Positions 126 through 63,966 of a stretch of DNA of 64,000 nucleotides are shown here, piece by piece. Below the pieces are notes generated by a model, which saw only the letters and a program-made list of their open reading frames with translations, did no database searches and was not told the DNA's origin. A program made the translations under genes and the position numbers. Within the stretch, counting starts at the first letter, position 1; the number at the start of each line of letters is the position of its first letter. The stretch comes from Rhyzopertha dominica (lineage: Eukaryota > Arthropoda > Insecta > Coleoptera > Bostrichidae): contig QCXZ01000137.1 of NCBI GenBank assembly GCA_025024175.1, forward strand, positions 74,152,680 through 74,216,679. Reading direction: 5' to 3'.

Positions 126-1955
126 CAGGGTGTTCACGCTGAGAGTCTACAATAGCTAACTTTTTTATTTTAAATCGTAGAATAAATGGGAAAATTCTTG
201 ATTTTTCGAGAAGGATTTGATAGTGTTTACAAAAAAACAATTGAACATCATCTGTCAAAGATATTGACTGCCAGTTTGTTATTTTAAAAAGGGCGTCGAA
301 TTAAACAAAAAAAGTGCTAAGGTACCACTACCCTACAGTCATCTGTTTTTGAGATATTTCATGTAATATTATTTGTGTTCACGAAACGGTCTACAATGGC
401 TAACTATTATATTTGAAATCGTGAAATTTTCAGCTGTTCTTTTTTTAAACCCATCAAATTTTTCTCGAATAAATAAAGAAACTTTCCCATTTATACCACT
501 ATGCTACGATTTCAAATAAAAAAGTTTGCTGTTGGTATCCTAATATTTTTTTGTTTAATCTGATGTGGTAAATCGAATGCGCTATAAAAAGAGAGGTCGT
601 TCTATTTGAAATAACAAACTTGTAGTCAATATCTTTGACAGATGAAGTTTAATTGTTTTTTGTAAACACCGTCAAATTTTTCTCGAAAAATCAAGAAACT
701 TTCCCAACTAAACCATTAATGCTACGACTTCAAATAAAAAAGTTAGCTATTGTAGACTGTTTTGTGAATACAAATCATATTACCTGAAGTATCTCAAAAA
801 CAAATGACTGTAGGGTAGTGGTACCTTAGTACTTTTACTTCCACATCCAACGGATGGGTATTGTATCGCAAAAAAAATTTTCAAAAATTTTTATTTGCTC
901 ATTGGCTTTAAAATGGTCGAAAACGCAAAAAAACAAAATTTGAGCAAAAACAAATTTCTTGTCTGTTAGTCTGTGTGTCTGTGTGTCTGTGGTATTGTTT
1001 GTGGACACCATAACTTTCGAAAGACTTAATATATGAACTTGAAATTTGGCAGACGTATAAATCTCACCTACCCAAAGCGACCTATTGTTTGTGGGGTAAA
1101 TAGGGTATCAGGAAGGGGGCAACATTGGGGGGTAACCACCCTTTTTGCAAATTTTTATTTTTTTATTTTTTTTGTTTTAGTATGTGATTAGTAGTATAAC
1201 TGCGAGTTTTATTCGTTCTTATAAATTTTCGGTGCAGCAAACTGTTTAGAAGACATTAGCAAAAAAGCGTCACTTGAAGAAAACGGTTTTTCCTAAATAT
1301 CTCCGAATATNTTTAATGTATTCAAAAAATTAAAATACAATCAGATAGGAAATAAAATTTCTCACAAAAAGTGTCTTAGAAAATTTATTCAAAATTTTGA
1401 CAATTTCGAAATATTTCCAAAAAACCTATTTTGGACCCTGCTCGTACGATTTTTTTTAAATTTTGGTATTATATAGAAAATCAAATTTCTGATCAGAAAG
1501 CACTCTTGTAATTTTTTTGTTAAGTTAATAATTTTCGAGTTATTTGGAAAAAACGATTTTAAAATTTATATATTTTTGCCAATATCAGGAGGTCTGTTCG
1601 TATTAGAAAAAATGTATAGAGATGAAAAATGCTCAAAACCTGATTACTAAACGTGTAGTATAAGAAATAAAAACGTAAATGTCATTTTGACAATTGGATG
1701 TGGAAGTATTGATTCAATTTGCAGCGGTTTTTTGTTTAATTCGACGCCCTCATTCGAGTGCGCCATAAGAATGATAGGTATCATTCTATTTAAAATAATA
1801 AACTGGTAGTCAATATCTTTGACAGATGGTGTTCAATTGTTTTTTTTGTAAACACCATCAAATTCTTCTCGAAAAATCAAGAAATTTCCCATTTAAACCA
1901 CAACGTTTTCAAATAAAAAAGTTAGCTATTGTAGACTGTTAGCGTGAACACCCTG
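126..1955. mobile_element. TA-flanked DNA transposon with long inverted repeats and internal palindrome
   Basis: It begins cagggtgttcacgct at 126 and ends with the inverse, ...agcgtgaacaccctg, at 1955; both ends abut TA, as for Tc1/mariner-type insertions. The terminal inverted repeats extend about 200 nt (shared blocks include gtctacaatagctaac, gatttttcgagaag and gtcaaagatattgact). A second inverted copy at about 560-845 folds back on 126-420. No transposase is seen, so it is non-autonomous. Confidence 0.75.
837..1707. mobile_element. nested insertion with 14-bp inverted ends
   Basis: acttccacatccaa at 837-850 and its exact inverse at 1694-1707 bracket about 870 nt that interrupts the larger element. 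It has internal (gtctgt)n-like sequence near 965-990 and no coding capacity that I recognise. Confidence 0.5.
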
Positions 1956-2431
1956 TAAACATCCGTCCGTAACATGCAAACGTATCTCAGCACATGCAGA
2001 TTAAACAAGTGTTGTTTAAATAAAATAAAGCAATTTTAAAACATATTACATAATATTTTGAAATGCAGGTATTTTGATTGCCAGAAGGTTTTTTAATGCC
2101 ATCAGTTGTGCAGTTAAAAGGCTAGCAATGTGGAACTGCTGAATGACGTAAAAAAAACATAATGCACACAAACGGAGGCTACAGCAGAAAAACAGAAGAC
2201 GTCAACTTTTCGAAAAAAAATCGGTGTTCATCTCCACCTATAGTGTATTATTAATTTATTAAATGAGATATAGGTATCCAGAGAACATGCAATTAAGGTA
2301 TTAGTATACAGGCATAAAATATCTGCGAGTTCCCTGTAAAGGAGTACCTAAAAATAATAAGTTAAAGTCGTCTGCAGGGATGTGTTGAATAGATATATAT
2401 CACTTTGTTGTAATTTTTACCATTATAATAC

Positions 2432-2553
2432 AAAATTACGTCTATGCCGTGTCGCCTGCGTCAATACGAACTGTGGACAGCTGTTTCGGTTTATAAAGCC
2501 TCTTCAGTACGGCTATTGTCCCAACGCAAGCGACATGGCATAGACGTAATTTT
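2432..2553. repeat. imperfect hairpin, 29-nt arms
   Basis: Arms 2432-2460 and 2525-2553 are inverted repeats with two mismatches (core ttacgtctatgcc and its inverse) around a 64-nt loop. It is probably a small foldback element. Confidence 0.6.
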
Positions 2554-4794
2554 GTTATTATTATGCTTGAGAACTGCACTCCTTGCAGAATCGTCGTTGG
2601 GACCTCTATTTGTTTTTAAACGCCTACAGCAAAGTGGGCTACCGTTCAGATTAGTTCTCTTCGCAGACGAGTGGATAATATTATTAAATTGCCACTAGAT
2701 GGCATGGTGTTATCCACATTCTAATTCTCGCATACATATCGCCTACCTTGGCGTATTTAAGGGCAGCCTAAAAATCCCGCGTTATGTTATTTTTGTTATT
2801 ATCCTCTGTTGGACATTTGCATGCAAAATTATGATACATATCTTAACATGACACAAAATTTGCAACATATTTTATATTAACTTTGAGTTTGAATATTTGA
2901 GCTAATGGCCCCGCAATGTTGTTGGACATAGTTTTACGTATTCTATTTTTTAAACATCTATTAGTTTTAAAAAGTACAAAATTGTTAAGTTTTATTATTT
3001 AATGTTATTTGTCGTGATGCAAGGGTAATGTAATTATGTGTATTAAATTTGACGCTTTGAATAACTGTCAATTATTTCTTCCAATTCTAACTATGTACGT
3101 ATGCTCTAAGGAAAAATTAATTACAAATGTGCTATAAAGGCATGTATGACGTAGAAGTCGCGCATTAAATAGAATAGANAACATACAAAGCCAGTACTAT
3201 TATGCAATCTAACAAATATTTATTTAACTGAAAAAGGAGATATGTTAAAGCTGTTAAAGGAGACGTGTCGCTACCACAATATGGCAGGAACAAACTGCAC
3301 ACCATAGTACCTATATCTTAAAAAGGCATTCGCTGCAGTAGTTCCTAGGAATAGAAAGAGGCGTATGATAAATTTAATCATAACATTGATTTCGGTACAA
3401 ATTTTCGTAAGCACTCCGATACCTCATACAGATTGAATAATTAATTTAAGATATAGTCGGGTATAGGTAAAATAATCTTCAGACTTATTTCATTATTTCT
3501 TTCACTGACGCTCTGGTTGTTTACTTCGTAGCTGGTATTGCGTGCGTGTAGTTGATTTATGGGGGTAGCCCTTGAATAAAATGCACGGCTATTACTTAGT
3601 TTAGATATCGTTAGATAAAGCAAAATGTCCCACTGCGCAAACTGCAGTATTTCCTTTTTATGGTTATGCCTTTTCGTGATCAAAAACTTTCATCCATTAC
3701 AACACAAATGGGAAGCATTGGGCATCCATAAATAGTTACGAACTATGCAAAAATGACGCTTGCCAATTTTATATTACCTATATTAAGTTTTTGTAACCAT
3801 AAGTTCGACATATCAAATGTTCTAAACTCTTGAATGGCTTTTTATTACAGCTATTGAACTTGTTCCACAACTTATGTTTTAAAAGTCCAAAATTTGACCA
3901 TAAACTGTCAGATAAACAAACTAATAGTAAAGGTAACGCCGGAAAGACCACTAAGATGATGTTTCATTGAGGGTGCAGATTGAGCAACTTGTTGCAAATG
4001 GGCTGCCTAACAATAAATATTGCGTGGCATTACACAGCCACAGAAAATCATGGCGCATTGATTCTTAGGGAAAAAGTGATTTAACAGGTTTGTCGTTCTG
4101 ATTTCTCTATCGGTTCTCTAATATCATTTTGTTGTTTAATAGCCACCATGGCAAATTACATTTCCTTTATTTAAGTAAATATTTGCTTCTCAGTTTCTTC
4201 TTACAACTTAAAGTTGTACAGTTCGTAAACAATAAAAATACTGTATGCATCTCTATTAGTAAATCCATTCTGAAAGTATTCGCAATAAAACTAAATCCGC
4301 GAATAAAAATTAACCAAATAACCAGACTTTACGAGCCGTTACACACTAAAGAGACGTTTATGATGCATGTGTTATGTTGACCGTATAATTTCTGCATCAG
4401 CACGAGCTAAAATAATTTTAAAGCCGGTAACCAGAAATCGAAATTCCTGGAGGGAATGTTTCGCGTTCTGAATGATTTATGATTCGAGCTTTCATTTGCA
4501 GCGCTTATAGCTGAGCAACGAAAAGGAAAGGGGAAGAAAAATTAGCCCACTTTAAATTCATCGGATGCATTTAACAGCACCTATTATTAATTAAGGGCTG
4601 CTGTATTATAATAAAATTACGTAAAGTACTCGTAAGGGGGCAAGAATTGAAAATATTTACACACTTTTCAGATAAATAAAATAAGAGCTAATAGTAGTTT
4701 TATTCTAATTGAACTATAATGGAAAATCCTAACCACCTAGCCATAGGTAAGTTACACATCATTTAAACAAAACTATATAAGAAACATAACTTAT

Positions 4795-5772
4795 TCATTC
4801 TCGATGACTCCATTTCTTCGAATTTGATCGATCCCCTTTTTTGTGTCCGTCGCGAGCCGCTGTACAAGGTTTCTGTCCATTTGTGGAAGGCATAACTTGA
4901 TCCGATTGGCGAGTTGATGGGTATTTTCGGCTGTCCAAGCATTTGCATAAACACGGCTTTTCAGAAATGACCAGAAGTCTCGATGGATCTCGCTTCCAGA
5001 ACATTTGCCGGACGAATTCGATGATTTGGTCTCGCAAATAATTGACGACGATGCTGGCGTTGTGTGAACTCGCTTTATCCGGCCAAAACACATAATTATC
5101 GTCATAGTTAGCTTGAATATAGGGAATGAGCCTCTTTTTGATGCATTCCTCGAGATAAACTTCTCTATCGATGGCGAAATTCGACTCCTTGATGAAAGGT
5201 TTCTGATTTCCTTAGGACCAATCGCGAGCCACACCAAAACCTTCTTTTTCTTTACAAACTTGATGTTAGAAGGTGTATTCAAGATGTTTGAGGAACAAAA
5301 GTTCATGCTGTCATGTATTGAAGACTTGGAGAGAGTGAAACACGACTCATCATCGAGGATCCAAGATCGATTCGAAAACTTCCGATAAAGTCGACCACAC
5401 AAAGTCTTCACTTCTGTTCTTAATCTTTTATTTCGATCGGGGATAGCCTTATTGTGACAATTAACCTCTTCAAATCCTTGTTAATACCCTTTGAGCTACA
5501 TATTTGAACTGTTTTGCCGCTTGTCGTTGGCAAATTCCTTCCTGGTGGTCGAATTTTTGATGAAGAGAGGCCAACTTACGTGGTGTGAAGATTTTTGGGG
5601 TCGATCCGGATCCAGATTTGCGAGAAGCAGACAAACTGTTTTGGAAACGTCTTAGAATGCGATAAATAGTCGTTTTAGGAACACCTTGCTCCATAAAATG
5701 CGGTGCTATGACGGATTTTCCGGATTCCATGTTGTACACANGACTTCGAAGGAGGTCTTGCTGGAAAGGCAT
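4795..5772 (-). pseudogene. decayed Tc1/mariner-superfamily transposase
   Basis: On the minus strand a helix-turn-helix N-terminal part (5772-5470: EQGVPKTTIYRILRRFQNSL and KSGSGSTPK) is followed after a frameshift by the DDE domain (5411-4795). The latter shows ILDDESCFTLS around the first Asp, WPDKASSHNA across a frame change, and a C-terminal RVYANAW...IRRNGVIEN block. Stops and frame changes make it inactive. I could not find its terminal repeats. Confidence 0.8.
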
Positions 5773-30500: not shown

Positions 30501-33500
30501 AAAATAGCGCCAGTAGGTTTCTATAACTAATATCGTACATCTGGCACAAATAAAATTTTGTGAATTTTATGAACAAGTCCAATGTCAAAGTAATAAACTG
30601 GTTAATTGTTGCAAAAAGACAGGGCCAATTGCTGCTAATATTATGTCGTTATATCTTTAAAAACATTTATGTTTATATGTGTATCTACATATTGTATGTA
30701 TTTTACTTAGTATCTTGAAATCTTGATAACTTGAACTTTTTTGCTGGTTGAAGCCTTACTGTACTGTAGATGCTCTTATGTTCTTCACTGTAACGTAATG
30801 CTGTGCAACCCGACAAAATTTTTCATATCACCTGCTGGAAGTTCTAGTTCAAACGTCTACAAAATTTATGCAGTTTCAAATTTTTTGATTGATTAAAGAC
30901 GTAGGTAATTGTTGTTTCCAGCTTTGCAAATCTAATTCAACAACAGTTCTTTTTTCTGTTAAGTTTACTAGATACTAAAAACAGACAATCCCTGTAAAAT
31001 TTAACACCGAAACCACAAACTGGATAAAGCAATAAAAATTGAGTGAATTTAAGACTGATAGTTAAAGGAACTGGGGATTAGTTGCATCAGAATAAAATAA
31101 TAAGAATATAAAATATATTTTGTTTAATATTTTTAAGTCATTTGGAGATATTTTGGCTAAATTTTTCAGATCGTTTTTTTTTTTGGGCTGAGAAGTGTAA
31201 ATTTGTTCACAGATATATAGTATTTACTTATTGTAGAGGGCACGACAATCGGAACAAATTTAAACCATGAAAACTTGTTTTTACATACAGGTAGTCATCA
31301 ATTTAAAATTGGATATGAAATTTTATTAAATTAACGAGAAGATTCATACATATTAAGAAAGATATAAAATGTATTCTTAACTTTCATCATTGCCCAACCA
31401 ATATCTGGTTCAAGGATTTCCCATTTGTAATAAATCACCCTATATAATACCATAGATAAATTAAGAAAGATACCCAACCAATGTACACGATAATTTGTTA
31501 GCTTTTAGATCTTGATTGTAGAGGGCCACAGTAGTTGGTTCTTAACTTCACTTAAAATATTCATCACGTCGTTAACTAGTTCTTGCTCTTCTAATTTGTC
31601 CGTGAGTGGAAAGGAATAAGAAACGAAAATTACCCTCTCCTTAAGTAGCGCAGGTTGTCGTTACAAGCTAACACTGACATACGTACAGCAGATCTACTTG
31701 ATGTGAGTCAGAGAGAGATGGGTAGTTAAAAATGTGCTGCGCTAGATTGGGGCGTGGTGTGGTATTACCACGGCCCAAGTGGGTGCCGACTGCCCTGTGT
31801 TGCCAGTTTCAGCACAAAAGGCTGAATCTAGCACTTTTTGAAATTTTGCAACTTTTGGTAATAATTAAGCACCATTTCAAGTTTTTCGTTCATAATAATA
31901 TGTTTATATAGTGCGGCCAAAAACAGCACACCTTTCAGTAACCATGCAACTAATAATGTTATCGTATATAGGTACAGCGCCGTTTTGAACACTACCTTAC
32001 TCCTAAAACGTTTACTTTCTCCTAGCTCGAAAACGCATTGGTTTATCGAAAAAATAAGTGAAATAAAAGTTTAAGATGTCAGCTACTTTGGTGTATAAAA
32101 ATTTGAAAAGAATCGCGTCATTTGTCGAATAAGATTTTTTTTTGTCTGGCAATGCCGAATTTCACAGCGGCAACCGGCAAGAGTAGGAATGCGAGTAAGG
32201 TCCAGAATAACTGTACAGCTGCGCGATATACGACCTGCTACAGCGAACGCATAAAGTCGGACATAGTTCATTTTAGAGGCGTCATTATAATCAGCGCGTT
32301 TGTCATAATAAGCAAAGTTTATTTTGTACCAAAATCCTGAAATTCCAAGCGCTGATTAAAATAAAAACTGTTTATGCCGCTGCACATTTTTAAATTGAAA
32401 TGAATTTAATTTTTGACTCTAGCTCACTATCCGAACTACTATCACTTTTATTGTGTATTGTTATAAATAGATCTGTAATTCATGCAACAAACATGCATTA
32501 ATTTTCAATATATATAAAAACAGAGCTTACAGCTTAAAAGATTTAGTTACCTAGGTCTACATAAATATACATTAGCAAAACGACAATAATTGCAAGAGGG
32601 AACGAATAATCACAGAAACTATTTGCAATTAAATATCAATTCTGTGTGCATAAAGTCGAGTACCTTTTGGGCTATTTTGAACCATACTCGCATGTCCACG
32701 GACGCCGCTGTGAAATTCGACATTGCTACACAAAAATATTATGCCACAAACTATGTATTATATTGCGAATTTGCACACACCAATAAACCAACGTGTTTTT
32801 GTGCTGGAAGAAACTAAACGACGAATTAGGTAGTGTTTAAAGCGAACGAAATTCATTAAGGCGCTCTATAAGAAAGCATAGTGACGGCGTTATTAGAAAT
32901 TTAAAAAAATTATATTTGCCATTTAAGCAGCAGCGTAGTATCTTAATATAATAAAGGTGAGGTACCAAAGATATTAAAAAAAAAACAAACAAACATTTTT
33001 ACTTATTTTGGAAATTCACCCCCCACAACCCTCTGCACAGCGCGCTTTCTTCACGACTAAGACAGTTGTTTTCCTTTTTCGATGAGGAATTATTTGAAGG
33101 CAGTCGTAGCTTTTAGCAACAAACTGCAATGGAAAATCATTTCTGGAAAGCTTGTTATACCTGGCAAGGTCTACTATTAGGCAAGCGGGTGTGTCAAGTT
33201 GGCCCCGCCCGATCAAATTTTTACAATTACAATATGGGGATGAATTGTGCTAGTTTTGTGCTGAATTGTGCTGCTATTAAAAAGTTTTGTGCAGCAACCC
33301 TTATACGCTTAATTAAATAATCATTTGGCGGGGCCAGCTTGACGGTCAGCCCCGCTTTTTTTGGGAATATTCAAAATCTAATTATGGCAATGAATTGTGC
33401 TCGTTTTGTGCTGAAATGTGCCGGTGTCAGGGAGTTTTGTGCAGCAACCCTTATATTTAATTTTTTAAAAACACCGGCGGGCGGGGCCAACTTGACGGTC

Positions 33501-36500
33501 AGCCCCGCTTTTTTTGGGAATACTCAAAATCTAATTACGGCAATGAATTGTGCTCGTTTTGTGCTGAAATGTGCCGGTGTCAGGGAGTTTTGTGCAGCAA
33601 CCCTTATATTTAATTTTTTAAAAACACCGGCGGGCGGGGCCAACTTGACGGTCAGCCCCGCTTTTTTTGGGAATATTCAAAATCTAATTACGGCAATGAA
33701 TTGTGCTCGTTTGGTGCTGAAATGTGCCGGTGTCAGGGAGTTTTGTGCAGCAACCCTTATATTTAATTTTTTTAAAACACCGGCGGGCGGGGCCAACTTG
33801 ACGGTCAGCCCCGCTTTTTTTGGGAATATTCAAAATCTAATTACGGCAATGAATTGTGCTCGTTTTGTGCTGAAATGTGCCGGTGTCAGGGAGTTTTGTG
33901 CAGCAACCCTTATATTTAATTTTCTAAAAACACCGGCTGGCGGGGCCAACTTGACGGTCAGCCCCGCTTTTTTTGGGAATATTCAAAATCTAATTACGGC
34001 AATGAATTGTGCTCATTTTGTGCTGAAATGTGCCGGTGTCAGGGAGTTTTGTGCAGCAACCCTTATATTTAATTTTTTTTAAACACCGGCGGGCGGGGCC
34101 AACTTGACGGTCAGCCCCGCTTTTTTTGGGAATATTCAAAATCTAATTACGGCAATGAATTGTGCTCGTTTTGTGCTGAAATGTGCCGGTGTCAGGGAGT
34201 TTTGTGCAGCAACCCTTATATTTAATTTTTTAAAAACACCGGCGGGCGGGGCCAACTTGACGGTCAGCCCCGCTTTTTTTGGGAATATTCAAAATCTAAT
34301 TACGGCAATGAATTGTGCTCGTTTTGTGCTGAAATGTGCCGGTGTCAGGGAGTTTTGTGCAGCAACCCTTATATTTAATTTTTTAAAAACACCGGCGGGC
34401 GGGGCCAACTTGACGGTCAGCCCCGCTTTTTTTGGGAATATTCAAAATCTAATTACGGCAATGAATTGTGCTAGTTTTGTGCTGAAATGTGCCGGTGTCA
34501 GGGAGTTTTGTGCAGCAACCCTTATATTTAATTTTTTAAAAACACCGGCGGGCGGGGCCAGCTTGACGGTCAGCCCCGTTTTTTTTTTGTAATATTCAAA
34601 ATTAATTACGGCAATGAATTGTGCTCTTTTTGTGCTGAAATGTGCCGGTGTCAGGAGGTTTTGCATTTAATATGTAAAAATGTTTATAACCTGCAACAAG
34701 AGATAATAGCGCACATCAACTCCCACGAGAAATCAACACCATGTGTAAATTGTTCAAGCCCTACTATTCGTGAGAATCGGTTGCACACAAAAATCATCCT
34801 TATTGAAATTCTTGACACATCATTGAATATACCTGAATTACAGTTAAAAAGTATACCAAGACAGGTAGCCGTTGAAAACCAAATTTATGTATTAAGAGGA
34901 ACTATACCTTACTTTGGCTCCTATACGAATGAATCATCATTTTCTTCAGTTGGCCATTTCAAAGCTTACTGTTGTCGCTTCAATGGGAAGTGGGAAGAGT
35001 GCGACGAATTGCATACCAAAAAAATGGATCTGAATGAAGCCACACTCGTATAGCCGCACCTAATTGTATATACTATTTAAATTATTAAGGGCTGTTATAG
35101 TTTTTTTGTTAATTCTTAAATGTATTTTTATACCTAATTTGTCTATCTGTAAATAAGCTTACGTTTCTACTGTAAATATCTTTTATGTTATTGCAATTAG
35201 TATATCCACGTTTATTTTCTACTCGTTGTTAAATTTACAAATTTTATTGTCCAGTTTAAAAACTTATAAATACAAAAAAATTTGCAATAAAATAATATGC
35301 CTAAAACCATGCATTATTCTCAAACCTTTGTTTGTTAACCGTAAAAGCACCTACAATTTTTTTAAATTCGACTCAGCATATTACCAGCAAAGCAATAACG
35401 CTCATCCTAAATTTATATTACACAAACACACGGTAAGTAGAAATACAGAACTGCATCTATTTTATCTCCCACTACTTCTATCAGCTTTATCCTGTAAAGC
35501 TGTAATTTTGTAAATAGCAATCTATTAATAATAATTAAACCACATCGATTTGCAATATTTCAGAAAAACGAAACAAGGCTGATCGTCATCTCGAATCCGC
35601 CCGTCAATGTTTAAAAAAACAAATATAAGGGTTGCTGACGTCGGCACAATTTAGTACAAAACAAACACAATTCATTGCCGTAATTAGATTTTATATATTC
35701 CAAAAAGAAGCGGGGCTGACCGTCAAGTTGGCCCCGTATGCCGATGTTTTTAAAAATTAAATGTAAGGGTTGCTGCACAAAACTCCCTGACACCGGCACA
35801 TTTCAGCACAAAACGAGCACAATTCATTGCCGCAATTAGATTTTCAATTTTCCCGAAAAAAGCGGGGCTGACCGTCAAGCTGGCCCCGCCCGCCGATGTT
35901 TTTAAAAAATTAAATATAAGGGTTGCTGCACAAAACTCCCTGTCACCGGCACTTTTCAGCACAAAACGAGCACAATTCATTGCCGCAATTAGATTTTGAA
36001 TATTCCCAAAAAAAGCGGGGCTGACCGTCAAGTTGGCCCCGCCCGCCGATGTTTTAAAAAAATTAAATATAAGGGTTGCTGCACAAAACTCGCTGACACC
36101 GGCACATTTCAGCACAAAACGAGCACAATTCATTGCCGTAATTAGATTTTGAATATTGCAAAAAAAAGCGGGGCTGACCGTCAAGCTGGCCCCGCCAAAT
36201 GATTGTTTAATTAAACGTATAAGGGTTGCTGCACAAAACTTTTTAATAGCAGCACAATTCAGCACAAAACTAGCACAATTCATCCCCATATAGCAATTGT
36301 AAAAATTTGATCGGGCGGGGCCAACTTGACATACCCTAGGCAAGCAACTATATAGAGTCGTATCATTCGGGCTAATTACTAGAAGCAGTAGGTATAGCAC
36401 CTTAACAAATGTTTTTAAAGGTACCAACAAAATCTCTGATTAAAATATTGACGCGGGTCGACATTAGTATACTTTTGTTCTTGACTGTTTAAAAAAAGAT

Positions 36501-37877: not shown

Positions 37878-37952
<75 letters not shown>

Positions 37953-60600: not shown

Positions 60601-61770
60601 AAGCTTATCTTACATAGCCTTTTCTTTTAACCAACTCAACTGTATAAGAACTGTGTATACAGTAATTAAGCATTAATAAGACAACATAAAACTGAGCCCA
60701 CCTCTATTACTATTGCAAACTTTTCGCTAATAAAACCAAATAAAAATTAGTTGCAATTGCAACGCAATAATATTCATATTCGATATGCTTTTGGTAGTCT
60801 TCATATAATATCTACATACATACTTTTAAGAAAATTATTAGTAATAATTTTAATTAGTAAAGAATGATAAGGGAATACTGAAAGCGAATCTAATATCAAA
60901 TAATTTAAATTTAGTTACGAATGAATGTTTTATAACATATGATAATATATGCAGGTATATTAAACAAAGAACTACTTATAAGGTTTTTGCTTGAAATTAC
61001 TGTAGTGTTGTAATGCGATCCATTCAGTTTTCAACTACGGCTATTTTGCTAAAAGGTGGCAACCCTAGCAAGAAAATACGAAAAATTTCATCAAGTACCT
61101 AATTCATTTAATAAACCCTTAATTTGAGCGGTTGCTTTTGAACATTTGAACACAACACTAATAGAATAAGTATTCAAGGTAAGCCTTACCTTCGGACATA
61201 AATTGCGGTGTGCCGTCAGAATAAACGACAGTAGGTATTGAGCCGTATTTAAACCCTAATCAGTGCCGTTAATTGCGTAACTAGTCCTCAGGTATAGAGC
61301 ATCTGTTTAGTCTATATTTAAATGGAAACCTCATACTTATAACCGCATTTTTGTAAGTTTACATGTATGTAATGTTTGTACGCGTATTTCCTCGTATTTG
61401 ATACTCAAGTAGCAGTAATTCGCTATTCCATATTTTTGACAAGATATCAAATTTCCCGCGTTTTTAGAAAGATTTGAATGAAAAAAGCAAATAATAAACT
61501 AGAAAACGAATGATGAAAATAGGTACTAAAGGTGGTGATCTTTGATAAAAGGGTTGCCTTAAGACGATTAATATAATCTGATATAATATACTGTATTTGA
61601 ATGTGACGTATGTCCTTCGTTCATGAGTGATAACGATTGTCCTAATAATGAGAAACGAGAAGCAATGGACAATGTGCAATAATCCGTTCGTTTGTTTTGT
61701 AGTGTTTTTAATGTAAACGGTGTAAACACGTGCCACGTTTCTTAAGTATTCTTGAATTTGAGTGTGTGTC
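57662..61770 (+). other. slo 3' UTR and intergenic space before HIBCH
   Basis: About 4.1 kb, AT-rich, with no convincing gene. It contains the hairpin above, a Pumilio-type tgtaaata at 58330-58337, and many aataaa hexamers (for instance near 59585 and 59927) that could be polyadenylation signals. A tacagggcccgcc string at about 58165 resembles a transposon end, but I find no partner. The HIBCH promoter must lie in the last few hundred bases, where I see no TATA box I would trust. Confidence 0.55.
57663..57849 (+). promoter_or_regulatory. long-range hairpin opening the slo 3' UTR
   Basis: Arms 57663-57685 and 57827-57849 are 23-nt inverted repeats. They are perfectly complementary as RNA except for one G-U pair, and enclose about 140 nt. 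The left arm starts one base after the stop codon. It could be a regulatory stem in the mRNA or the terminal repeats of a small insertion. No protein-coding sense. Confidence 0.6.
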
Positions 61771-61773
61771 ATG
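61771..61773 (+). CDS. HIBCH first coding exon (start codon only)
   Basis: The ATG is followed at once by a gtaaat donor, and a gcttgcag acceptor lies 54 nt downstream. Removing the intron gives MALRLLVLTSNKLTRSQYSS, a basic, serine-rich, amphipathic-looking mitochondrial presequence, whereas read-through gives a start MVNFSNYDNCKLL that looks less like one. The exon is chosen on this basis. The 5' UTR extends upstream to an unknown point. Confidence 0.7.
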
Positions 61774-61827
61774 GTAAATTTTTCCAATTATGACAATTGC
61801 AAATTGCTAACATATTTTTGCTTGCAG
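61774..61827 (+). other. 54-nt stop-free intron of HIBCH
   Basis: gtaaat to ttgcag with a gctaac branch-like motif 19 nt from the end. Open in frame (18 codons). Confidence 0.7.
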
Positions 61828-62839
61828 GCGCTGAGGCTTCTAGTTCTAACCTCAAACAAATTAACCAGATCACAATATTCCTCAAGCAATAAAAATCTTT
61901 ATGCTAGCTTGCGTAAGATGTCCTCGGATCATAATGATGTGTTATTTGAAGATATCGGAAATAAGGGTTTGATAACTTTAAACAGGCCCAGAGCACTCAA
62001 TGCCTTAAACCTGTCAATGATTGAGAAAATCTACCCGGTCCTTAAAGTGTGGGAAAAAGAAAAATTATTGGTCATAGTTAAAGGTGCAGGCGGTAAAGCT
62101 TTTTGTGCTGGTGGGGACGTAAGGGCTGTCACTGAAGCTGGCTTAAAAGGTAATTCCAAAGTAGGACAAGACTTCTTTCGTAAGGAATACATAACGAATG
62201 GCTTAATTGGTTCTTATTCGATACCATATATCGCCTTCATTGATGGCATCGTAATGGGCGGTGGAGTGGGTTTGTCAATTCATGGGAAATATCGAGTGGC
62301 AACAGAAAAGACCTTATTTGCCATGCCAGAAACTCAAATAGGACTCTTCCCTGATGTTGGTGGTTCTTATTTTTTGCCTCGTTTAAGTGGCCGTTTGGGA
62401 TATTTTCTAGCCTTAACGGGGCATCGCTTAAAAGGAGTCGATGTATTGAAGGCAGGCATTGCAACTCACTACTGTGAAAGCAGTAAACTTACTGAACTGG
62501 AAAAGGCACTTCTTGATTCCAGTAAAACAGAGGATATTAAGAATGCACTTAATGAATTCAATACTCCACCTAATGAGGAGTTTTCTTTGTTGCCTTACAT
62601 GGATAAAATCAACAAGTGCTTCGCTCCTGGTAGCGTTGAAGACATTTTGGAAAGACTGGAGAAGGACAGGTCACAGTGGGCATTAGACACATTAAAACTA
62701 TTGAATAGAATGTCCCCTACGAGTTTAAAAATTGCTGTTAGGGAACTGGATCTAGGAAAACAAATGAGTCTTCAGGAATGTCTTCAGATGGAATACAGAT
62801 TGGCTTATAACTGCTTAGCCAACAATGAATTCTTTGAAG
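61828..62839 (+). CDS. HIBCH: 3-hydroxyisobutyryl-CoA hydrolase, main exon (gene incomplete at right edge)
   Basis: Hydrolyses 3-hydroxyisobutyryl-CoA to 3-hydroxyisobutyrate in mitochondrial valine breakdown, protecting against toxic methacrylyl-CoA (family knowledge). The exon encodes about 337 residues of the crotonase fold: GLITLNRPRALNALNLSMI near residue 47, the oxyanion-hole segment GAGGKAFCAGGDVRAVTEAG, then DGIVMGGGVGLSIHGKYRVA and MPETQIGLFPDVGGSYFLPR, where the Glu of PET and the Asp of PDVGG correspond to the catalytic pair. It is intact, with no frameshift. It ends ...NNEFFEG at a gtaaac donor. The human enzyme is about 386 residues, so some 40-50 C-terminal residues are in this and later exons beyond the window. 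Read-through of the donor meets a stop at 62893-62895. Confidence 0.95.
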
Positions 62840-63966
62840 GTAAACAGATACATTTTCTCATCTTGGTTAATTGCTACATATTGCAATGTTTCTAAATTGT
62901 GCTGATGAGTTTCAAAAACAAAGTATTTTGTGGGTAAAATGCTCTACACTTGTCACTAAGAGACCAAGTTTGTGCAAAAATAGTCGTTTTAATTTACTCC
63001 TGTGGAGGGCAGGGAGTATTCTAAGAATAAATTTAAAACAGATTCATTTCTTTCATGTTCATAAGTTGTTTTTATGTTGATAACTATTAGTTAAAAAACT
63101 AGTGGAATTAGAATACTATATGTCTTTCATCATCTAAAATTCATTAAAAAATTGCCAAATCCTTAAAAAGTCAGTCTTGATTATTTGGTCTGCTAAAAAT
63201 ATACCATTTGTTCATTTACTTACTTTATATCTCTTCATACAGTGGAAATTGCTCAGGAGCCAGAAGTAGAAGACCGAAGTTCAAATGTTTTACTCAAAAT
63301 GCAAAACTCTAATGCTAGAATAATGATTTTTGGACATTCAGATGTTCTTAGGAATTCCTTTAAAAGTAATTTGCAAAGGATTGCAAGAAAAAAGTTGTCA
63401 ACATAAACTTTTTATCTACATGTTGATCACAATAGAAACTTACCACTATTCCCAAGGTTTTTTAATTCATTTTGCTGAGATGGATTAGTTTTTATCATAT
63501 GCATACACGTGATTGTTGTGTGTACTTTTACTTATGAATACAATAGCACCACACAAATGCCATGACTGCCCTTTGCTCTTTCATTTGCATTTCTTCCTAT
63601 TTCTAGCTTTATAATGATAAACTCCAGTCGGCTTGATTTTGATTAATATCTTTGTTTTACTTTAAAGAAGTTCATCACCTGTAAATGTCTTGTATTGTGC
63701 CGAGTACATTCAGCCAGAGTCGATTTTTTAAAGTACTCATAAGGCATTACATATCATGTTCAGTATAATTTTTCATAACCTAATATAACCCAAGTCCTGG
63801 TTGGGACTCGAACCCGAGACCTCTTGATTCATAGGCATACATGCTATGCTCTGGACCAGCGAGGCTGGCTATAATCATCTCTTGTACTCAGCTGTCACCT
63901 ATTAAGCGATGTTTTAGTAGTAATGATGCACTCTGTATATATAAACAGTATAAATTTGATTTTTAG
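62840..63966 (+). other. HIBCH intron 2
   Basis: 1127 nt with gtaaac and ttttag ends. It holds a tRNA-like SINE remnant at about 63790-63875 and nothing else I recognise. Confidence 0.8.
63790..63875 (-). repeat. tRNA-derived SINE head or tRNA pseudogene
   Basis: On the minus strand a perfect Pol III B box (ggttcgagtcc) follows an A-box-like stretch around ctggtccagagca. The T arm pairs four of five bases, but the acceptor strands do not pair and no clean anticodon arm forms. So this is not a functional tRNA; a SINE head or tRNA pseudogene fits best. Confidence 0.45.

Follow-up and report, generated by a model that had tools for sequence, protein, structure and literature searches.

The Foldback (FB) elements of Drosophila possess long inverted arms built from tandem repeats and are flanked by 9-bp duplications. 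Here we describe an element of this architecture in a 64,000-nucleotide stretch of the genome of the beetle Rhyzopertha dominica (assembly GCA_025024175.1, contig QCXZ01000137.1, forward-strand positions 74,152,680 to 74,216,679; hereafter, the window). Foldbacks, including their repetitive arms, have long been a puzzle, and Tetris of Drosophila virilis is one example without a known transposase. Tetris is portrayed as a foldback with tandem arm repeats of about 220 bp, 8-10-bp duplications, a variable number of units, no conserved coding core, and three structurally complete copies (PMC4079207). Rehavkus elements are described from arthropods and annelids as possessing short inverted repeats (26-400 bp), the 3' one preceded by a minisatellite, together with 9-bp duplications, a PHD finger, and a Mutator-like transposase (PMC6446971). 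Tm1 of root-knot nematodes, which is placed in Phantom, is reported to combine foldback-type composite ends made of repeats of about 14 bp with 9-bp duplications, a Mutator-type transposase, and non-autonomous derivatives; the domains named for Phantom in the same excerpts are FLYWCH and MULE, with no mention there of a ubiquitin protease (PMC3169594).

The beetle element shares with Drosophila FB/NOF the 9-bp duplications and the long inverted arms of repeated units, and its nearest protein relative carries a NOF-FB name in UniRef; its repeat unit measures 153 bp. Like Tetris, it is a foldback with tandem arm repeats, similar duplications, and a variable number of units; in contrast to Tetris, it is represented by 17 gap-free copies and by a coding relative in the same genome. 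It has the duplications, the arthropod host, the Mutator-like transposase, and the minisatellite-like repeats near the end in common with Rehavkus, but differs in having a long repetitive arm on either side and a ubiquitin-protease (USP) fold. With Tm1 it shares the composite foldback ends, the 9-bp duplications, the Mutator-type transposase, and the existence of non-autonomous derivatives. Foldbacks, NOF, and Mutator elements are established types of transposons; what the present family adds is the fusion of a transposase with a USP domain, a clear and testable link of cut-and-paste transposition to ubiquitin. A young family with variable arms and its coding relative occur together in one genome, which permits a copy-by-copy comparison of arm length, core flipping, and mobilization.

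The foldback element occupies positions 33187-36336 of the window (3,150 bp) and, by direct reading, has the ends GGGTRTGTCAAGTTGG. A preliminary description had proposed identical 9-mers on both sides, inverted ends, arms composed of 153-bp tandem units, and a unique core of 946 nt. We found the perfect duplication TAGGCAAGC immediately outside both termini, and such duplications recur at other copies; the ends and the arms were likewise confirmed by direct reading and repeat finding, and the non-repetitive core is present, with a measured length of 947 bp. Tandem Repeats Finder detected the 153-bp period in both arms, with 95% matches on the left and 88% on the right, and a repeat finder aligned an inverted arm pair of 590 nt with 96% complementarity. 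The element thus displays the hallmark of the foldback class: a variable middle enclosed by long inverted arms that consist of tandem repeats. Coordinates are collected in Table 1.

Table 1. Features of the foldback element in the R. dominica window
Feature	Position	Strand	Basis
Left copy of the 9-bp target-site duplication, TAGGCAAGC	33178..33186	.	direct reading
Left outer end, 154 bp, G-type terminus GGGTGTGTCAAGTTGGCCCCGCC	33187..33340	+	direct reading, genome matches
Left arm, 153-bp tandem units, 9.3 copies	33240..34663	+	repeat finding
Core: 3' end of the transposase-USP gene and downstream sequence; lacks the catalytic Cys codon and the DDE region	34664..35610	+	
Remnant reading frame, 129 codons and stop; matches the C-terminal part of the USP fold	34664..35053	+	
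Right arm, inverted 153-bp tandem units, 4.3 copies	35635..36283	-	repeat finding
Right outer end, 154 bp, A-type terminus GGGTATGTCAAGTTGGCCCCGCC	36183..36336	-	direct reading
Right copy of the 9-bp target-site duplication, TAGGCAAGC	36337..36345	.	direct reading

A genome search with the outer end and the core, which the preliminary description had suggested, recovered a family from the 479-Mb assembly (138 contigs), in match counts that are neither exact nor complete, as scoring covered the best candidates and assembly gaps make some places appear twice. The outer 154 bp yielded 443 first-look candidates; the best 40 of these were scored and proved full-length or nearly so and 99-100% identical, and five more matches were partial (75-79%). 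Consistent with the recent insertion that had been proposed, 24 of the 40 scored matches, the window's own copy included, were 100% identical. The core probe (window 34700-35600) yielded 77 candidates, the best 40 of which were scored at 91-100% identity, together with one 58-nt fragment. We collected 24 copies, the window element and those at 23 further places: 17 are gap-free and possess both ends, five contain a 100-N gap, L041 is truncated, and L045 is partly covered. The 17 gap-free copies, the window element among them, are 2,686-6,666 bp long, and their arms carry 4-23 key-motif units each. Of these copies, 13 are flanked by perfect 9-bp duplications whose sequences differ from one another, L029 and L037 show one mismatch each, L027 shows three mismatches that resemble a one-base shift, and L034 has no duplication; matching 9-mers were also found outside the gapped copies L021/L022 and L023. 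This replication across the gap-free copies excludes a chance origin of the window's 9-mer pair. The window element and L031 (3,150 bp), as well as L026 and L027 (4,071 bp), have equal total lengths at different sites, as expected if whole arms move together. When the 17 joined flank pairs were compared with the collected foldback loci only, the listed matches came from a single pair (that of L033, which lies in a dispersed repeat), and none ran across the junction.

The two outer ends can be told apart by five diagnostic positions. The G-type end lies left of the core in 15 of the 17 copies and is reversed in L032 and L038; L034 and L038 have A-type ends of mixed character, a pattern expected from recombination between the arms. 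Mean pairwise divergence among the 17 copies was 0.3% for the G-type end, 1.1% for the A-type end (end values that may be too low), and 2.4% for the core. Within arrays, the units are 95-99% alike. In each 153-bp unit, the terminal 17 bp recur as their reverse complement, and a shorter version of them in the opposite orientation comes next; the inverted terminal motif was present within one mismatch in 324 of 330 units.

Beyond what the preliminary description had noticed, the core proved to be the 3' end of a transposase gene whose product has a ubiquitin-protease fold. That description had suggested looking for full-length relatives encoding a MULE transposase; L039 is a longer, transposase-coding relative with the same arms and core, and its protein gave no match to Pfam MULE. 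Upstream of its core, L039 contains an open frame of 809 codons (1443-3872), and downstream follow the core and inverted units, the right arm running into a 100-N gap. The adjacent upstream stretch, L046, carries left-arm units to about base 480 and then an ATG at 1350 with 236 codons (one N) that end at AGG/GTAAGT; the intron comprises 1,885 bp and ends in TTCTAG before L039:1443. Exon 1 gave 12 genome matches, nine of them full length at 99-100% identity and distributed over six places; at three of these places, two full matches lie 6-8 kb apart and may be one copy assembled twice. The core of the window element starts at about codon 673 of exon 2, past the codon for the catalytic Cys (L039:3117). 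In 22 of the 25 matches outside L039 the core match starts at core base 2, as compared to base 9 in L039 itself; from this common start, it is likely that the window-type copies derive from one founding deletion.

The remnant reading frame retains the His and the first Asp position of the catalytic residues, but the Cys is gone. Among 26 core sequences (both of L039 included), 12 keep the frame open as far as its regular end, 11 have it interrupted by a stop or frame shift, and three lack the anchor and could not be scored; assembly errors may account for some of the one-base shifts, given the single Ns that occur throughout the copies. Non-autonomous copies differ by a mean nonsynonymous divergence (dN) of 0.024 and a synonymous divergence (dS) of 0.036 (276 pairs, gapped duplicates included), and the parent differs from the copies by 0.057 and 0.073, respectively. 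These values indicate no strong constraint on the remnant frame. With the frame broken in many copies and the catalytic Cys codon lost, we rejected the core as a functional coding unit. Searched alone, the remnant fragment matched no Pfam family, and none of 12 candidate relatives reached E 10.

The closest relative of the L039 protein is the weevil protein P0001, designated NOF-FB transposable element protein by UniRef, and the link to NOF rests on this name. Weevil and aphid proteins among the relatives agree with an insect host, as the potassium channel and hydratase genes of the window agree with an animal one. The catalytic region of the parent transposase, modelled on a relative, best matched the transposase ISCth4; the DDE transposase is of the IS256/MULE type that characterizes the Mutator-like superfamily. 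The foldback/MULE family that had been proposed for this insect is supported by the 9-bp duplications at many sites, the longer transposase-coding relative, the NOF-FB-named protein, and the ISCth4 match. In the predicted folds of relatives, the C-terminal domain adopts the Peptidase C19 (USP) fold and it carries the Cys-His-Asp catalytic residues (Cys559, His769, and Asp785/786 in L039). In relatives with letters at both columns, the Cys is present in 19 of 19 and the His in 18 of 19. Automatic USP or NOF-FB names already exist in databases for such proteins. The open-access literature matches listed (including PMC9741609, PMC6431247, PMC2836005, PMC3688188, and PMC3169594) contained, in the passages seen, no pairing of a NOF/Mutator-type transposase with a USP domain.

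Taken from the anatomy of the element, its duplications, the copy family, the shared core, the gene layout, the conserved catalytic residues, and the relatives' predicted folds, all of which the data show, the window element is very probably a non-autonomous foldback, internally deleted from a NOF-like Mutator/IS256-type element, presumably mobilized in trans, and descended from a parent whose USP part would have a role in transposition. An internal deletion in a larger element would have left both arms and the 3' end of the gene. The transposase of longer copies would then recognize the outer ends, excise the element in a cut-and-paste manner, and make a 9-bp staggered cut at the target. The number of units would shift via recombination or slippage between near-identical 153-bp units, and recombination between the inverted arms would also flip the core. 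The most likely role of the USP fold of the parent protein would be to strip ubiquitin either off the transposase or off proteins located at the break, and thereby to help the transposase or the repair step.

Several observations weigh against this account. The fold models were made from relatives and not from the host's own protein, and the whole-model Foldseek TM-score of the ISCth4 match is low (0.20 by query). Pfam MULE, lacking in the L039 protein, was matched weakly in three of 45 relatives at E 0.01. The Pfam UCH score of the L039 protein (18.7 bits) lies below the cut-off of 23.9, UCH was matched in two of the 45 relatives at the same E-value, and Ser occupies the Cys column in one of 31 relatives with a letter there, while the His column holds another residue in three of 21. 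One parent gene was read through (exons 1 and 2) among the six places with a full-length exon 1, and the parent is known from its gene, arms, and core, short of its own outer ends and duplication. The copies were taken largely from the best-scoring end and core lists, so that end divergence may be underestimated. Furthermore, the terminal-motif blocks are no better conserved than the whole unit, and we therefore do not take their conservation as proof of binding.

Membership in Rehavkus, a group used as outgroup to Mutator-like elements, instead of the NOF clade appears doubtful. Besides the traits of Rehavkus set out above (PMC6446971), a SCAND3-type zinc finger in eight of 45 relatives, located in P0004, P0006, and P0011 between the transposase part and the Cys box, would fit this assignment, as do the 9-bp duplications. 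Against it stand the absence of any zinc finger from the L039 protein in a Pfam scan, the presence of units in both arms, and the length of these arms, about 0.6-3.5 kb (573-3,491 bp outside the core probe), as compared to 26-400 bp in the excerpts on Rehavkus.

We consider it rather unlikely that the USP-like part is a scaffold without catalytic function, or a passenger domain that the element took from a host gene. The sub-threshold UCH score would agree with this, as would those relatives that lack the Cys, the His, or one Asp; the near-complete retention of Cys and His argues against it. So does the occurrence of the domain in relatives 27-46% identical to P0001, from which we infer that it is old and retained. 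The USP part may have protease activity. Ginger1, VTD-Helitrons, and a Trichomonas transposase_11-C19 protein are likewise transposon proteins with a deubiquitinase- or SUMO-protease-type domain, but in the passages concerned they belong to other transposase classes and mostly to other protease families (PMC2836005, PMC9741609). The same passages report Ulp1 in Mutator elements and do not contain C19 together with a Mutator/IS256-type transposase. For the OTU/Ulp1 domains of transposases a repair role is proposed in the Ginger paper (PMC2836005), and a protective role for such a domain in the VTD paper (PMC9741609), as far as the excerpts go. We tentatively propose an arthropod Mutator/IS256-type lineage with a deubiquitinase-transposase fusion, which foldback derivatives would parasitize and whose deubiquitinase might shield the transposase from degradation or edit ubiquitin signals at the break. 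As part of this proposal, the derivatives would drop the enzyme and keep an expandable array of terminal-like motifs, and ubiquitin editing at the excision break might steer repair.

Tandem repeats in long arms are also a feature of Galileo, in which they hold extra binding sites for, and bind, its transposase, a P-superfamily enzyme with a THAP domain according to the passages cited (PMC3688188). By analogy, the 153-bp units may serve as transposase binding sites. In the fold matches, P followed ISCth4, and then came Hermes and retroviral integrases, the latter two being taken as a general RNase-H-type fold; that the element is a foldback of another superfamily (P-like, as Galileo), with convergent arms, is very improbable. 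The notion that two opposite-oriented satellite or tandem arrays merely mimic a transposon, to which the similarity of units within arrays and one truncated arm without a core (L041) might lend credit, is scarcely credible in view of the many unrelated sites at which the same ends and core occur with 9-bp duplications, and of the coding gene within the same arms.

When the P0001 model was compared with a viral fold library, mainly hydrolases were matched. The first match was the uncharacterized Bracoviriform inaniti protein O92526 (E 1.6e-10, 613 columns, root-mean-square deviation 27.6), a hint that a bracovirus carries a related transposon gene.

Apparent head-to-tail dimers at L021/L022, L023, L024/L025, L039, and L040 were rejected and kept out of the 17 gap-free copies, since the 100-N run in each is taken to mark an assembly break. 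The 3.1-kb right flanks of both supposed elements at L024/L025 are the same sequence (98.6%), so this is one place assembled twice. Foldback arms thus break the assembly and create false dimers, with a 100-N gap in five of 24 foldback places. Two candidates for autonomous copies were also discarded: L041 consists of an outer end and four units, beyond which the sequence has neither units nor a core, and the 5 kb that precede the core in L045 are left arm. This arm (278-5273), with about 31 units, is exceptionally long.

An Rfam scan of the window gave no match at the gathering score. The element lies 1.5 kb from an (ATT)24 microsatellite (37878-37949) and 3.6 kb from a coding stretch for a calcium-activated potassium channel of the slowpoke type (PF03493, PF22614; 39936-40412, +). 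The window also contains the remnant of a BEL/Pao retrotransposon with a Pao retrotransposon peptidase domain (PF05380; 24662-25120, -; E 1.1e-09), two overlapping frames at 4791-5480 (-) that by eye resemble a broken mariner/Tc1 transposase, and a gene of the enoyl-CoA-hydratase type (ECH_2; 61762-62895, +; E 7.7e-116).

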